Source: Rhizobacter sp. SG703 (GTDB taxonomy: Bacteria; Pseudomonadota; Gammaproteobacteria; Burkholderiales; Burkholderiaceae_C). From it: DNA of 64,000 nt. This document shows, piece by piece, positions 46,667 to 50,843 of this stretch. The translations under genes and the position numbers were made by a program. How positions within the stretch are numbered: the first letter of the stretch is position 1; the number at the start of each line of letters is the position of its first letter. Location: NCBI RefSeq assembly GCF_012275445.1, contig NZ_JAAZQK010000002.1:310001-374000 (forward strand). The letters are read 5' to 3'. The notes under the pieces are model-generated. The model was not told the DNA's origin. It saw only the letters and a program-made list of their open reading frames with translations, and searched no databases.

Positions 46667-46769
46667 CCCGCAACGGTAGCACCGCTCCCGCGTCATTCAC
46701 ATGTGGGATGGACGTAGACCCGCGCCGCCCGATACTGGCCGCGCAGTCTCAACCACCACGGAGGAGCCC

Positions 46770-49661
46770 ATGAAGCTCTTGATCTCCAAGGGTGCGTCCG
46801 GTCCGGACGTGGCTCGCCTCGCGCAGGCGCTCGCCGCAGAGCTCGGCCCCGATGCCGCGGATTTCCCGGTGCTCGCCGCCGCCGATCCGGCCCTCGACGA
46901 CGGCTTCGACGCCGCGATCCGCCGCTGGCAGGCCGGCATCGGCATCATTGCCGACGGCATCGTCGGCCCGCGCTGCCAGATGCTGCTGAAGCTCGCCGAC
47001 GAAGGCCCGGCGACCGATCCGGTGCTGACCGTCGGGCTCGTGAGCCAGCTGTTCCCGGCCACCAAGCCGGCCAACATCGCGCGCTACCTGCCGTATGTCG
47101 AAGCGGCGCTGCGCGCGGCCGGGCTGGTCGACCGGCCGATGGTGCTGGGTGCGCTCGGCACCATCCGCGCCGAGACCGAAGGGTTCGTTCCGATCGCCGA
47201 GTTCCAATCGCGCTTCAACACGCCGCCAGGCGGCGCGCCGTTCAGCAGCTACGACCTGCGCCGCGACCTCGGCAACGGCGCGGCCGGCGATGGTGCCCGC
47301 TACAAGGGCCGCGGCTTCGTGCAGCTGACCGGCCGCGCCAACTACAAGCACTACGGCGAGGTGATCGGCCTCGCGCTCGATGCCGACCCGGACAAGGCAA
47401 ACGCACCCGAGGTGGCCGCGGTGGTGCTCGCGCAGTTCCTGTTCGACAAGGCCGACAAGTTCCGCGCCGCGGTCGGCAAGGGCGATTTCGCGGCAGCCCG
47501 CAAGCTGGTCAACGGCGGCGCGCACGGGCTGGACGCGTTCCGCAGCGTGTTCGAGCTCGCGGCCGCGGCGCAGCCGCCGCAGGCCACCGGTGCCGGTGCC
47601 GCCCGGACCGCGGCGGCCAAGACCCGCCGCCCGGCCGGCAGCACGCACCGCGTGTCGCGCACGAAGAAGGACACCGCCGACCTGCGCGACCGCCAGTACA
47701 TGCCGGCGGCGCTGACGCTGCCCGACGAGTTTCCGAGTGCCGAGGTCGTGCAGCGCTTCCTGCCCGGCTACGCGAAGGCCGGGCTGATCCTGAACCAGGG
47801 CAGCGAAGGCGCCTGCACCGGCTTCGGCCTGGGCTGCGTCATCAACTACCTGCGCTGGCTGAAGGCGAAGACGCCGGCGAGCTTCGAATCCGTCAGCCCG
47901 CGCATGCTCTACACGCTGGCGCGCCGCCATGACGAATACGAAGGCGAGAACTACGAAGGCTCGAGCTGCCGCGGCGCGCTGAAGGGCTGGTTCAACAACG
48001 GCGTGTGCCTGGAGACGGACTGGCCCTACCAGGCCGACAAGTCCGACACCGCGCGCTACGGCTTCGCGACACGCGCGACGCAGACCACGCTGGGCGTCTA
48101 CTACCGCGTCGACACGCAGTCGATCACCGACATGCAGGCTGCCATCGCGCAGCATGGCGCGGTCTTCGTCTCTGCCTTCACGCACGACGGCTGGGACGGC
48201 GTGCCCGACGTCGCCGAAGAAACGCGCGGCCATGCCGACCTGCCGCTGATCGCGTTCGACGGCCGGCCGTCGAAGGACGGCGGCCATGCGTTCGCGCTGG
48301 TCGGCTTCAACGAGCGCGGTTTCGTGCTGCAGAACTCCTGGGGCCGCGACTGGGGCGCCGGCGGTTTCGCAACGCTGTCGTACCTCGACTGGCTGGCCAA
48401 CGGCATGGACGCCTGGGTGGTCGCGCTCGGCGTGCCGGGCGTGGTCGCCGGGCGGCTCGCGGTGTCGCAGCAGACGGCCCGCGGCAGCACCGCGACGCGC
48501 GGCGATGCGGTGCGCAACGGCTGGTGGGACACCGCGCTCGCCTACCGGCACAGCGTGGTGCTCGGCAACGACGGCCGCGTGAGCCGCTACCTGACCGAGG
48601 ACGAGCAGCCGCGCAAGCTGCAGCAGCAGGCCTACGCGCTGCCCGACCAGTGGTTCCGCAGCCAGCCCGACGGGCCGAAGCGGCTGCTGCTGTACGTGCA
48701 CGGCGGCCTGAACAGCGAGGCCGATGCGGTCAAGCGGGCCAGCGCGATGGGCCGCTACCTGCTCGGCAACGGCTGCTACCCGCTGTTCCTGGTGTGGAAG
48801 ACCGGCATGCTCGAATCGATCGGCGACATCCTGTCGGACGCCTTCCACCGCGAACCGGCGCGCGCCGGCGCCGGCGAATGGCTGACCGACAAGACCGACC
48901 TGCTGATCGAGAAGACCATCGGCCGCCCGCTCGCGAAGCCGATCTGGAGCGAGATGAAGGAGAACGCGCAGCTGGCCTTCTCGCCGCGCCATGGCGGCGA
49001 GCTGCTGCTGGACGCGATCCAGTCGCTGGCCGCCACCTGGGGCGCGCAGTTCGAGCTGCACCTGGTCGGCCATTCGGCCGGCTCGATCGCGCTCGGCCAC
49101 TTCCTCACCGCGCTCGCGGTGCGCCAGCACGCCGGCCGCGACGACGGCCTGGCGCAGCGCCTCGCATCGGTCAACCTGTATGCGCCGGCCTGCACCGTCG
49201 CGTTCGCGAACCAGCACTATGCCGGCGACCCGCAGGTGATGGAGCGGCTGCACCTGGACGTGCTGTCCGACAAGGTCGAGCGCGACGACAACGTCGCGTC
49301 GATCTACCGCAAGTCGCTGCTGTACCTGGTGTCGAACGCGCTGGAGACTGACCTGCGCACGCCGATCCTCGGGCTCGACGCGGTCAACGACGCGGCCTTC
49401 GCCGGCTGGGACGGCTCGTCCGACACCGGCGAGGCGCTGGCGACGTGGCGCGCCGCAGCGGCCGATTCGAAGCTGGCGGCGCGCACCCAGCGGGTCACCG
49501 GCGACCGCATCCAGACGGCGCTCGGCACCGACGGCCAGCCGGTGCTGCAACGGGCGTCGCATGGCGGCTTCGACAACGATGTCGAGGTCATCACACGCAC
49601 GCTGGAGCGCATCCGCGGCGGCGAGCTCGCGCTGCCGGTCGACGACCTGCGGGGCTACTGA
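46770..49661 (+). CDS. Multi-enzyme fusion: PG-binding, GH19-like, papain-like peptidase, alpha/beta-hydrolase
   Basis: A 963-residue protein with a strong GGAGGAG ribosome-binding site. Order: peptidoglycan-binding repeat (about 5-78; GFDAAIRRWQAGIGIIADGIVG); GH19 chitinase/lysozyme-like domain (about 85-262; GTIRAETEG with candidate acid E135, YKGRGFVQLTGRANY); a Lys/Arg linker; a C1 papain-like peptidase (about 318-555) with QGSEGACTGFG (C349), GGHAFALVGF (H506) and QNSWG (N522); and an alpha/beta-hydrolase (about 635-940) with LYVHGGLN and GHSAGS (S769). There is no signal peptide or membrane helix. Catalytic residues look intact in at least the peptidase and hydrolase. It could be an exported effector, a lysis enzyme or a polymer-processing protein; I cannot tell. 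The catalase-fold gene follows 66 nt later. Confidence 0.88.
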   Translation: MKLLISKGASGPDVARLAQALAAELGPDAADFPVLAAADPALDDGFDAAIRRWQAGIGIIADGIVGPRCQMLLKLADEGPATDPVLTVGLVSQLFPATKPANIARYLPYVEAALRAAGLVDRPMVLGALGTIRAETEGFVPIAEFQSRFNTPPGGAPFSSYDLRRDLGNGAAGDGARYKGRGFVQLTGRANYKHYGEVIGLALDADPDKANAPEVAAVVLAQFLFDKADKFRAAVGKGDFAAARKLVNGGAHGLDAFRSVFELAAAAQPPQATGAGAARTAAAKTRRPAGSTHRVSRTKKDTADLRDRQYMPAALTLPDEFPSAEVVQRFLPGYAKAGLILNQGSEGACTGFGLGCVINYLRWLKAKTPASFESVSPRMLYTLARRHDEYEGENYEGSSCRGALKGWFNNGVCLETDWPYQADKSDTARYGFATRATQTTLGVYYRVDTQSITDMQAAIAQHGAVFVSAFTHDGWDGVPDVAEETRGHADLPLIAFDGRPSKDGGHAFALVGFNERGFVLQNSWGRDWGAGGFATLSYLDWLANGMDAWVVALGVPGVVAGRLAVSQQTARGSTATRGDAVRNGWWDTALAYRHSVVLGNDGRVSRYLTEDEQPRKLQQQAYALPDQWFRSQPDGPKRLLLYVHGGLNSEADAVKRASAMGRYLLGNGCYPLFLVWKTGMLESIGDILSDAFHREPARAGAGEWLTDKTDLLIEKTIGRPLAKPIWSEMKENAQLAFSPRHGGELLLDAIQSLAATWGAQFELHLVGHSAGSIALGHFLTALAVRQHAGRDDGLAQRLASVNLYAPACTVAFANQHYAGDPQVMERLHLDVLSDKVERDDNVASIYRKSLLYLVSNALETDLRTPILGLDAVNDAAFAGWDGSSDTGEALATWRAAAADSKLAARTQRVTGDRIQTALGTDGQPVLQRASHGGFDNDVEVITRTLERIRGGELALPVDDLRGY

Positions 49662-49727
49662 GCGGCCGCGGAACGAAGGCCTGCTCCTACAGGCATTCAG
49701 TTCCGCGTCCGACGCGCGCGGTGCGCG

Positions 49728-50843
49728 ATGGCGTCCATCATCGGCGCCATGGACATCACGCCGATCCCGTACGACTCGTCGTTCGAACACGCCGAAGAGG
49801 ACGAGTCCGAGACCTGCGAAGAGATCATCAGGACGATGCGCGGCATCGCGCAGACCACCTGGGCGCATTCGGGCCATGGCCTGCGCGGCGTGCACGCCAA
49901 AAGCCACGGCCTGCTGCGCGGCGAACTGCGCGTGCCGCCCGGGCTACCGCCGGCGTATGCGCAGGGGGCGTTCGCGCAGCCCGGCGAATGGCCGCTGGTG
50001 ATGCGGCTGTCGACGATCCCCGGCGACATCCTCGACGATGCGGTGTCCACGCCGCGCGGCATGGCGATCAAGCTGATCGGTGTCGACGGCGTGCGGCTGC
50101 CGGGCAGCGAAGGGCAGTTCACGCAGGACTTCGTGCTGGTCGACGGCCCGGTGTTCGGCTCGGCCGGGCCGAAGCAGTTCCTGGCCGGGCTGAAGCTGCT
50201 GGCCGCCACCACCGACCGCGTGCCGACGCTGAAGAAGGCGGTCTCGGCGGTGCTGCGCGGGGCCGAGAAGGCGATCGAGCAGGTCGGGCTCGAAAGCGGC
50301 ACGCTGAAGGCGCTCGGCGGGCATGCGCAGACCCATCCGCTGGGCGACACCTACTTCAGCCAGGTGCCGATGCTGTGGGGGCCGTACATGGCCAAGCTGC
50401 AGGTGGTGCCGATGTCGGCCGAGCTGCAGGCACTGACCGGCGCACCCATCGAGACGCACGACCGGCCGCAGGCCTTGCGCGATGCGGTGCTGTCGCACTT
50501 CGCGCGGGCCGGCGCCGAATGGGACGTGCGCGTGCAGCTGTGCACCGACCTGCAGGCGATGCCGATCGAGGATGCATCGGTGCGCTGGCCCGAGGACCAG
50601 AGCCCGTTCGTCACGGTCGGCCGCATCGCGATGCGGCCGCAGCTCGCCTGGACCGAGACGCGTTCGGCCGCGATCGACGACGGCATGTCGTTCAGCCCGT
50701 GGCACGGCCTGGCGGCGCACCGGCCGCTGGGCGCGGTGATGCGGGTGCGCAAGCGGGTCTACGAGATGTCGGCGCGTTTCCGGGCCGAGCACAACGGTCT
50801 GCGGATGGCACAGCCGCACACCGCGGACGAGTTGCCGCCCTGA
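49728..50843 (+). CDS. Catalase-family protein (y4iL/SrpA-like)
   Basis: A 371-residue heme-catalase-fold protein, shorter than the 480-700 residues of true catalases. It keeps the core: RGVHAKSHGLLRGEL (distal His region), LVMRLSTIPGDILDDAVSTPRGMAIKL (NADPH/heme-side segment) and FSPWHGLAAHRPLGAVMRVRKRVYEMSARFRAEHN (C-terminal heme-proximal region). Small catalase-like proteins of this type act as peroxidases or lipid-hydroperoxide enzymes. GCTCCTACA sits about 45 nt before the start, a motif also upstream of the stress genes at 7-12 kb. An ATG at 49749 is an alternative start. Confidence 0.87.
   Translation: MASIIGAMDITPIPYDSSFEHAEEDESETCEEIIRTMRGIAQTTWAHSGHGLRGVHAKSHGLLRGELRVPPGLPPAYAQGAFAQPGEWPLVMRLSTIPGDILDDAVSTPRGMAIKLIGVDGVRLPGSEGQFTQDFVLVDGPVFGSAGPKQFLAGLKLLAATTDRVPTLKKAVSAVLRGAEKAIEQVGLESGTLKALGGHAQTHPLGDTYFSQVPMLWGPYMAKLQVVPMSAELQALTGAPIETHDRPQALRDAVLSHFARAGAEWDVRVQLCTDLQAMPIEDASVRWPEDQSPFVTVGRIAMRPQLAWTETRSAAIDDGMSFSPWHGLAAHRPLGAVMRVRKRVYEMSARFRAEHNGLRMAQPHTADELPP

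Follow-up and report, generated by a model that had tools for sequence, protein, structure and literature searches.

The fusion gene and its modules

The stretch of DNA analysed here, referred to as the window, comprises 64,000 nucleotides of Rhizobacter sp. SG703 and carries a gene in which a peptidoglycan-binding (PGB) domain, a GH19 domain of the endolysin type, a papain-type peptidase of family C1 and an alpha/beta-hydrolase (ABH) follow one another in a single reading frame. The features of the locus are listed below, with residues of the 963-aa protein numbered from the ATG at 46770.

46770..49661, + strand: coding sequence of the 963-aa PGB-GH19-C1-ABH protein (ORF translation; 19 proteins aligned, later 78 rows)
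46797..46973, + strand: peptidoglycan-binding domain, aa 10-68 (PF01471 below cut-off; 1lbu profile match)
47019..47564, + strand: GH19 endolysin-type domain, aa 84-265 (phrog_181, 4ok7, conservation of E135/E144)
47172-47174, + strand: candidate catalytic Glu E135 (E in 78/78 rows)
47199-47201, + strand: candidate catalytic Glu E144 (E in 78/78 rows)
47565..47663, + strand: Ala/Pro-rich linker of varying length, aa 266-298 (alignment A1)
47664..48449, + strand: C1 papain-type peptidase, aa 299-560 (PF00112 above cut-off; xylellain 3ois; 78/78 rows)
47814-47816, + strand: C1 residue C349 (78/78 rows)
48285-48287, + strand: C1 residue H506 (78/78 rows)
48333-48335, + strand: C1 residue N522 (78/78 rows)
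48495..49658, + strand: alpha/beta-hydrolase module, aa 576-963 (motifs; weak DUF900 matches)
49074-49076, + strand: candidate ABH nucleophile S769, within GHSAG 767-771 (46/46 divergent rows)
49560-49562, + strand: ABH H931 (H in 44/46 divergent rows, 2 gaps)
49728..50843, + strand: neighbouring gene, weakly catalase-like, 371 aa (PF00199 E 0.0027, below cut-off)

The window protein starts without a recognisable signal peptide, as the first-pass annotation of this DNA had stated, and its N-terminus is not hydrophobic. A domain search detected no sensor or adaptor domain in the 963 residues, neither caspase C14 nor Amidase_2 is among the Pfam matches, and none of the PADLOC anti-phage defence models matched with an E value of 0.1 or lower. 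On the opposite strand, an ORF of 1052 aa (46749-49907) overlaps the coding sequence and is taken as a by-product of high G+C.

At the wall module, the Pfam score of PG_binding_1 (PF01471) is sub-threshold (16.2 bits, curated cut-off 23), and the assignment of the first domain comes solely from the module profile, which matches 1lbu in the PDB at aa 6-72 (E 2.7e-5). The Pfam GH19 family (PF00182) likewise stays below its curated cut-off (18.2 vs 25.5 bits); the PHROG endolysin family phrog_181 matches aa 84-295 (E 2.1e-30) and the module profile retrieves the GH19 endolysin 4ok7 (E 4.9e-18), a structural homology that, together with the two candidate catalytic Glu, places the domain in GH19. 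The peptidase scores above threshold (PF00112 at aa 342-536, 33.1 bits, cut-off 20.7), and its profile matches xylellain (3ois, E 1.9e-15), the catalytic Cys, His and Asn coinciding in the alignment. The active-site Gln, Q343, is kept in 78/78 rows and completes the Gln/Cys/His/Asn set of papain family C1, of which C349, H506 and N522 had already been correctly located.

The hydrolase displays a G-x-S-x-G elbow, an oxyanion HGG motif (aa 644-646), a conserved His and a conserved acid, for which E837 (46/46 divergent rows) and D840 (45/46, one E) are the candidates. DUF900 (PF05990) reaches 11.4 bits with the whole window protein and 14.3 bits with the module against a cut-off of 20.5; 29 of 41 ABH members match it weakly (E no higher than 0.5, the best being 4.5e-5), and a rescan of ten members placed one of them marginally above the cut-off (20.6 vs 20.5 bits). 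Judged from these matches, the module is a distant relative of DUF900, and a profile search of the PDB returned no significant match to a solved structure (best E 0.0089). The earlier description of every family in the protein as known is therefore loose for the ABH module, which is without a solved relative, the function of DUF900 being itself unknown.

Conservation and distribution of the fusion

The final alignment of 78 rows consists of the window protein and 77 relatives, drawn from the best 80 of 402 relatives in public genome records after leaving out L116 and L151, which are partial, and L091, whose length is not a multiple of three. E135, E144, Q343, C349, H506, N522, S769, D861 and H931 are identical in 78/78 rows, and position 834 carries D in 72 rows and E in the other 6. 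Conservation of residues across relatives rules out a chance ORF and, along with the uninterrupted 963-aa frame and the Pfam, PHROG and PDB profile matches, confirms the four-module fusion that the first-pass annotation had proposed. Mean column identity is lowest in the wall module (55%), the other modules showing 69% and 64%.

On the evidence of these sequences, the PGB-GH19-C1-ABH arrangement is widespread in bacteria and no local oddity. Within the host family its occurrence is patchy, with the full-length fusion in 20 of the 299 genomes sampled, a count that includes G068, whose gene is divided between contigs, and G215, whose PG-binding part is read in another frame, and excludes G027, whose gene is broken into several frames. 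Thirty-five genomes count as other C1-ABH carriers, among which G071 and G053 have the GH19 of the second group and G000, G119 and G282 additionally encode the full-length fusion. Carriage of the full protein by plasmids or phages was rejected, since, among the matching records (59 from plasmids, 426 from phages), none contains 80% of the protein. A C1-ABH gene is present on one viral contig (L200/L201), and the shorter C1-ABH members in the plasmid records examined are labelled 'C1 family peptidase' or left unannotated.

Recurrent assembly of the hydrolase with wall hydrolases

Members of the ABH family are also fused to GH19 without PGB (L055, L056, L185/L283), to a muramidase of family PF11860 (L168/L282) and to Amidase_2 plus a caspase (L188, L189 and Kovacikia L331). 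In the ABH tree the fused state requires 6 changes, and separate branches are occupied by the window clade (100/99), by the clades containing the second GH19 group and the muramidase row, and by the amidase-caspase pair. Read on this tree, the same hydrolase has joined, on separate branches, wall hydrolases that are unrelated to one another (two groups of GH19, a muramidase and an amidase), with either a papain or a caspase as the peptidase. This recurrent joining argues for one joint job, the dismantling of bacterial cells. The repeated assembly from unrelated parts is a testable sign of three activities serving one task.

C1-ABH proteins without any wall hydrolase account for 50 of 208 ORF hits, redundant loci included (no ABH ORF was found in L288). 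So many relatives devoid of a wall hydrolase imply that the C1-ABH core pair also serves a function on its own, and they lend some weight to the idea of a cytoplasmic processing or turnover enzyme, formed by peptidase and hydrolase, that gained its wall-binding part by chance. The mixed neighbourhood of C1-ABH genes (100 of 135 scanned, 158 families, judged from the 25 commonest) fits the same idea. A chance gain sits poorly, however, with the fact that three unrelated wall-hydrolase families were each joined on a branch of their own and with the retention of both GH19 Glu in every aligned row, which makes this explanation decidedly unlikely.

Gene neighbourhood

Neighbouring genes were clustered over 118 loci (429 genes, 250 clusters; L091, L116 and L151 skipped), with counts inflated by L033/L073 and similar pairs, which are the same genomes counted twice; the neighbours of the full-length gene were grouped into clusters and screened with a small set of seed families. 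A conserved operon or immunity partner was rejected, as none recurs and neighbours vary between genera, and no lysis, secretion or immunity gene is recurrent beside the fusion among the neighbour clusters. A same-strand gene lies within 150 nt downstream in 26 of 83 loci, of many unlike kinds and without a common partner; in some loci a single small gene may nevertheless act as an immunity gene.

The weakly catalase-like gene adjoins the fusion in Rhizobacter and is found near two other loci, and in L296 an animal-type haem peroxidase gene is flanked by a trypsin-like gene on one side and C1-ABH on the other. These placements would suit a lipid-signal enzyme, whose ABH module frees fatty acids that an adjacent haem enzyme oxidises. 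Against it, the catalase-like neighbour amounts to 7 of 118 loci, corresponding to five distinct genomes, the peroxidase to one locus, and GH19 and the peptidase are left unexplained. This proposal is thus highly improbable, and the catalase-like neighbour is probably not part of the system.

A different possibility is programmed self-lysis, in which the cytoplasmic protein would dismantle its producer, or the debris, after membrane failure caused by phage attack, damage or starvation. An endolysin-type GH19 without signal peptide, the lack of a recurrent immunity partner and the existence of carriers devoid of a type VI secretion system (T6SS) agree with it, as do the replacement of papain by a caspase in the amidase version and the caspase gene directly upstream of the fusion in L152; cell death is also what the accessible text of PMC3501461 argues for caspase-amidase proteins. 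Conversely, L152 is the sole full-length locus with a caspase gene, and the patchy occurrence, the missing sensor or adaptor domain and the lack of a PADLOC match all speak against self-lysis, which is consequently regarded as unlikely.

Relationship with type VI secretion

The window genome itself has TssC. It is absent from 10 of the 20 full-length carriers of the host family (each 99% complete or better, three of them single-contig) and from 24 of 49 further full-length carriers (6 of 25 isolates and 18 of 24 metagenome assemblies, a split made by eye from record titles, with L111 outside the count). As TssC is missing in about half of the carriers, T6SS delivery is not general, and the T6SS as a general route was rejected on these counts (10/20 and 25/49 positive). 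From carrier lists read by eye, TssC in full-length carriers (10/20) does not differ significantly from other genomes (92/279; p 0.14), whereas it is commoner in other C1-ABH carriers (21/35) than in the rest (81/264; Fisher p 0.001, uncorrected for kinship and genome size).

The latter enrichment, together with TssC in 19 of the 25 further isolate carriers, favors an antibacterial effector injected by the T6SS into rival cells. In the same direction, a shorter C1-ABH paralogue in the window genome is the last gene, on the 3' side, of an operon for the T6SS (TssJ, TssK, TssL, TssM, TagF and a kinase), a Tle1-like phospholipase gene comes next after the amidase-ABH-caspase gene in L284, and toxins of the GH19 and papain types are established effectors according to the available parts of PMC11253643 and PMC12136450. 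Nevertheless, four related genomes (L320-L323) have the same paralogue without relatives of the L318 T6SS genes in view, and for this reason the paralogue link is a lead only. The survey of neighbours for secretion or immunity genes suggested in the first-pass annotation revealed, apart from the lack of a recurrent immunity partner, a single VgrG in 101 loci, located some 1 kb away from the fusion gene of L050 and on the opposite strand; searches with own-genome seeds, which distant forms can escape, found no Hcp, PAAR or further VgrG in these loci, twins included, and none at the window. With TssC missing from so many carriers and not significantly enriched in full-length ones, and with downstream genes of unlike kinds, injection by the T6SS is rather unlikely. 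The existence of carriers without T6SS makes release by lysis or host-specific exporters likelier than one dedicated system.

A putative bacteriolytic protein and its relation to known systems

The reading preferred here, to which we assign a probability of about one half, is that of a bacteriolytic protein whose three enzymes together dismantle bacterial cells. Synthesised in the cytoplasm and lacking a signal peptide, the protein would bind peptidoglycan through its N-terminal domain, and the endolysin-type GH19 would cut glycan strands, as its family and conserved residues suggest. The papain-type peptidase might cut envelope or cell proteins or activate its own chain, and the ABH module would cut an ester substrate, perhaps most likely a membrane lipid, a guess from the fold. 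Invariant catalytic residues in the 78 rows, the phage-endolysin-like GH19 and the separate-branch fusions favor this bacteriolytic reading; the wall module being the least conserved, the lack of recurrent lysis, secretion or immunity neighbours and the abundance of C1-ABH alone weigh against it. The T6SS-effector and self-lysis explanations are narrower versions of it, each naming a route. Both fates, delivery and self-lysis, had been put forward from the sequence at the outset and both fit, while nothing found points to the eukaryotic target also considered then.

In a 2012 survey (PMC3501461), the portion available describes Caspase-Amidase_2 proteins, four sequences, one of them also with a GDSL lipase, and calls the caspase-amidase-lipase combination a highly destructive weapon. 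By domain content, these proteins resemble the window protein in uniting wall hydrolase, cysteine peptidase and lipase in one chain and differ in having a caspase for the papain fold and an amidase for GH19; among the sequences analysed here, the caspase-amidase chains L188, L189 and L331 carry the same ABH as the window protein. Such combinations were already noted in that survey, and the main new result here is the joining of ABH on separate branches to unrelated wall hydrolases. A literature search over titles and abstract openings of open-licence PMC papers found no description of the papain/GH19 version. More tentatively, and on balance doubtfully, the divergent ABH family may define a modular class of 'whole-cell demolition' proteins, in which the hydrolase is repeatedly assembled with a cysteine peptidase and an unrelated wall hydrolase and which act as executioners of self or rival cells; if so, one chain would attack wall, protein and lipid at once. 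The present analysis marks out the limits of a protein class with C1-ABH members that are barely labelled in plasmid records, delimits a hydrolase family without solved relative, and joins two separately described worlds, that of papain and GH19 interbacterial toxins and that of caspase-amidase proteins tied to bacterial cell death.

Among those toxins, TfcB of Stenotrophomonas maltophilia (PDB 7r6s) is antibacterial and has an endolysin-type GH19 fold that the window protein matches, its two Glu being nine residues apart (34/43) like 135/144; TfcB has a T4SS recognition domain where the window protein ends in ABH, and the sections of PMC11253643 available mention no peptidase or hydrolase. 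The Cpe1 papain-like T6SS/CDI toxins, as described in part of PMC12136450, resemble the window protein in using a papain-fold peptidase in interbacterial conflict, but immunity genes follow most of them and none is recurrent in the window family. Tle1-like T6SS phospholipases (PF09994) share the concept of a hydrolase that attacks membranes, yet the 23 families that ABH modules match do not include PF09994. Xylellain and other C1 peptidases align with the C1 module over the catalytic residues and the stretch preceding the domain, xylellain being a 291-residue chain without other modules. Finally, the GH19 module is shared with the phage endolysin SPN1S (PDB 4ok7) and with viral contig L203, which encodes GH19 alone, a stand-alone protein of 187 aa without peptidase or hydrolase that is 60% identical to window aa 86-262.

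Module composition of the fusion

The genome with the fusion gene measures 6.5 Mb in 29 contigs, and the gene's homologue in the close relative Rhizobacter sp. Root1238 is 98% identical. Its modules were delimited by motifs and by profiles built from 41 divergent members:

46770-49661, + strand: fusion open reading frame, 963 aa (translation)
aa 10-68, + strand: peptidoglycan (PG)-binding module; profile matches PDB 1lbu, 2.7e-5
aa ~84-265, + strand: GH19 module; profile matches PDB 4ok7, 4.9e-18
aa ~299-560, + strand: C1 peptidase module; profile matches xylellain 3ois, 1.9e-15
aa 576-963, + strand: alpha/beta-hydrolase module; motifs HGG, G-H-S-A-G, E837/D840, H931

Among the modules of the window protein, the C1 domain alone passes its Pfam cut-off; the GH19, PG-binding and C1 assignments are secure from the module profiles of the 41 members. 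The hydrolase is recognised by its motifs. Its 41-member profile has no PDB match at E up to 1, and DUF900, a family of unknown function, gives weak matches in 29 of the 41 members (top 4.5e-5), its cut-off being barely exceeded by one of ten rescanned members; on these grounds the module is predicted to be a divergent DUF900 relative. With a broader 46-row profile the top PDB match is a putative serine hydrolase (E 0.0089). An antisense reading frame of 1052 aa (46749-49907, - strand) spans the whole gene; we attribute it to the high G+C content.

Conservation and relation to known proteins

Within the same family, carriers read by eye amount to 20 of 299 genomes for the full-length fusion and about 35 of 299 for other forms with C1 and hydrolase (C1-ABH), of which two have another kind of GH19. 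A wider scan, with one genome per species, gave 402 relatives, of which the best 80 were kept; 78 of these 80 cover at least 900 residues. Besides Burkholderiales, Gallionella and other Nitrosomonadales, Rhodocyclales and Rhodanobacteraceae, the hosts of the best 80 include a single Pseudomonas, a single Buttiauxella and two assemblies of Desulfobulbaceae. The module arrangement is stable and its occurrence patchy. Since the active-site residues of GH19 (E135, E144) and C1 (Q343, C349, H506, N522), as well as S769, D861 and H931, are invariant in all 78 aligned rows, selection seems to keep the enzymes functional.

The fusion is real and widespread, and undescribed as far as the open-licence literature shows, in which targeted searches yielded no description. 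Multi-enzyme lytic proteins are a known category, of which the fusion is a further version and not a separate one. A 2012 survey reports Amidase_2 in four caspases, one of which has a GDSL lipase as well; it discusses cell death and attack (PMC3501461).

Recurrent assembly with unrelated wall hydrolases

Three module profiles run over the collected loci, redundant loci counted, matched all three modules in 128 ORFs and the C1-hydrolase pair in 50; the hydrolase was the single match in 16, the wall module in 11 and C1 in three. GH19, C1 and hydrolase occur without PG-binding in L055, L056 and L185/L283; a muramidase (PF11860) is joined to C1 and hydrolase in L168/L282; and Amidase_2, hydrolase and caspase are combined without C1 in L188/L284 and L189/L285. 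An amidase-hydrolase-caspase chain also occurs in the cyanobacterium Kovacikia minuta (L331), where it matches 92% of the L284 protein at 38.6% identity. A tree of the hydrolase (46 rows, 352 columns) requires six changes in whether the module is fused to a wall hydrolase; losses would add to this count, which rests on rows picked for diversity and an arbitrary root. The window clade (5 rows), the clade that holds the second GH19 group (9 rows), the clade that contains the muramidase row (4 rows) and the amidase-caspase pair are separate there, each at 100/99. Loss alone cannot account for the unrelated wall hydrolases.

Because the three enzymes have been combined more than once from unrelated parts, we take this as evidence that wall hydrolase, cysteine peptidase and hydrolase would serve a single shared task on bacterial cells. 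The function of the fusion is a prediction from sequence: it would first bind the wall, then cut glycan, and afterwards lipid and protein. The GH19 module is of phage-endolysin type and is 60% identical to a protein of 187 aa encoded on a viral contig (L203); an endolysin-type GH19 is likewise present in the T4SS effector TfcB (PMC11253643). The fusion may be a self-lysis factor; that no sensor was detected weighs against a regulated suicide programme.

Several loci hold further combinations. In L284:5993-10406 a gene for a Tle1-like phospholipase (PF09994, 9.1e-70) comes after the Amidase_2-hydrolase-caspase gene. The C1-ABH protein of L281:6911-10960 (- strand) has a 700-aa N-terminal part with no Pfam match at E up to 0.01. 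Trypsin-like, animal-type haem peroxidase and C1-ABH genes form a same-strand run in L296:1881-7903; caspase, YEATS-associated-helix, trypsin-like and C1-ABH genes cluster on a Rhizobium plasmid (L196:2192-9824); and on a Roseivivax plasmid (L197:4924-7800) a trypsin-like domain is fused to a C1 domain of the window-type family.

Export and neighbouring genes

The N-terminus leads directly into the PG-binding domain, and no signal-like stretch was seen in the window protein. Across the 78 proteins the top 19-residue hydropathy is 1.89, exceeded by the L090 N-terminus (2.12 over 12 residues) and an upstream extension in L132 (2.35). Flanking genes vary by genus; two are listed here:

49728-50843, + strand: weakly catalase-like gene, 371 aa; PF00199 E 0.0027, below cut-off
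L050:10799-14176, + strand: VgrG-like gene, ~1 kb from a full-length fusion gene, opposite strand

The catalase-like gene comes right after the fusion in Rhizobacter; of 118 loci, 7 from five distinct genomes have a relative of it, and those near the fusion in L035 and L075 are on the opposite strand. With seeds from the window's genome, the VgrG gene of L050 is the sole match in 101 loci, Hcp and PAAR giving none.

The papain-type toxin Cpe1 has adjacent immunity genes (PMC12136450), and conflict-system effectors include caspase, trypsin and alpha/beta-hydrolase (PMC8195603). The fusion may equally be an effector against rivals; against a classical effector weigh the lack of a recurrent immunity partner and the carriers without a type VI secretion system (T6SS). 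A downstream gene was called in 83 loci; in 26 of them it lies within 150 nt on the same strand, and these genes are of varied kinds.

Four Variovorax relatives (L076, L077, L081, L084) have a same-strand gene of 133-138 aa within 50 nt downstream of the fusion, the start of which may resemble PIN-domain proteins. In a Desulfobulbaceae assembly (L152:6760-14742) the full-length fusion is flanked by a caspase gene immediately upstream and by a further C1 peptidase gene (L152:12931-14742) downstream.

Link to the T6SS

Among the 299 genomes of the same family, 102 have the T6SS marker TssC (PF05943). It is present in 10 of 20 full-length carriers vs 92 of the remaining 279 genomes (p 0.14), and in 21 of 35 other C1-ABH carriers vs 81 of 264 (p 0.001, uncorrected). 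The ten full-length carriers lacking it are each at least 99% complete. Of 50 further carriers chosen, 49 were searched, and 25 of these have TssC. Isolates account for 19 of the 25 (out of 25 isolates) and metagenome assemblies for 6 (out of 24), absence from assemblies being weak evidence as these 49 have no completeness figures; the TssC-negative isolates comprise two Variovorax, Pigmentiphaga, Dyella, Luteibacter and Curvibacter. Since TssC is absent from many carriers, the T6SS is rejected as a general route and may be one among others.

The C1-ABH paralogue of the window's genome (G000:C2:113154-114947) ends a same-strand T6SS run:

L318:1-11310 and L053:6863-8803: operon of TssJ, TssK, TssL, TssM, TagF and a Ser/Thr kinase, ending in the C1-ABH paralogue

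This run with the paralogue is repeated in L326, of the same genus, and kinase and TagF are present in L319; in L320-L323 the paralogue has no relatives of those T6SS genes in view. In L323, L324 and L325 a large gene of one cluster adjoins the C1-ABH gene; in L067, the same region as L325, this gene is a Met-zincin (DUF4953).
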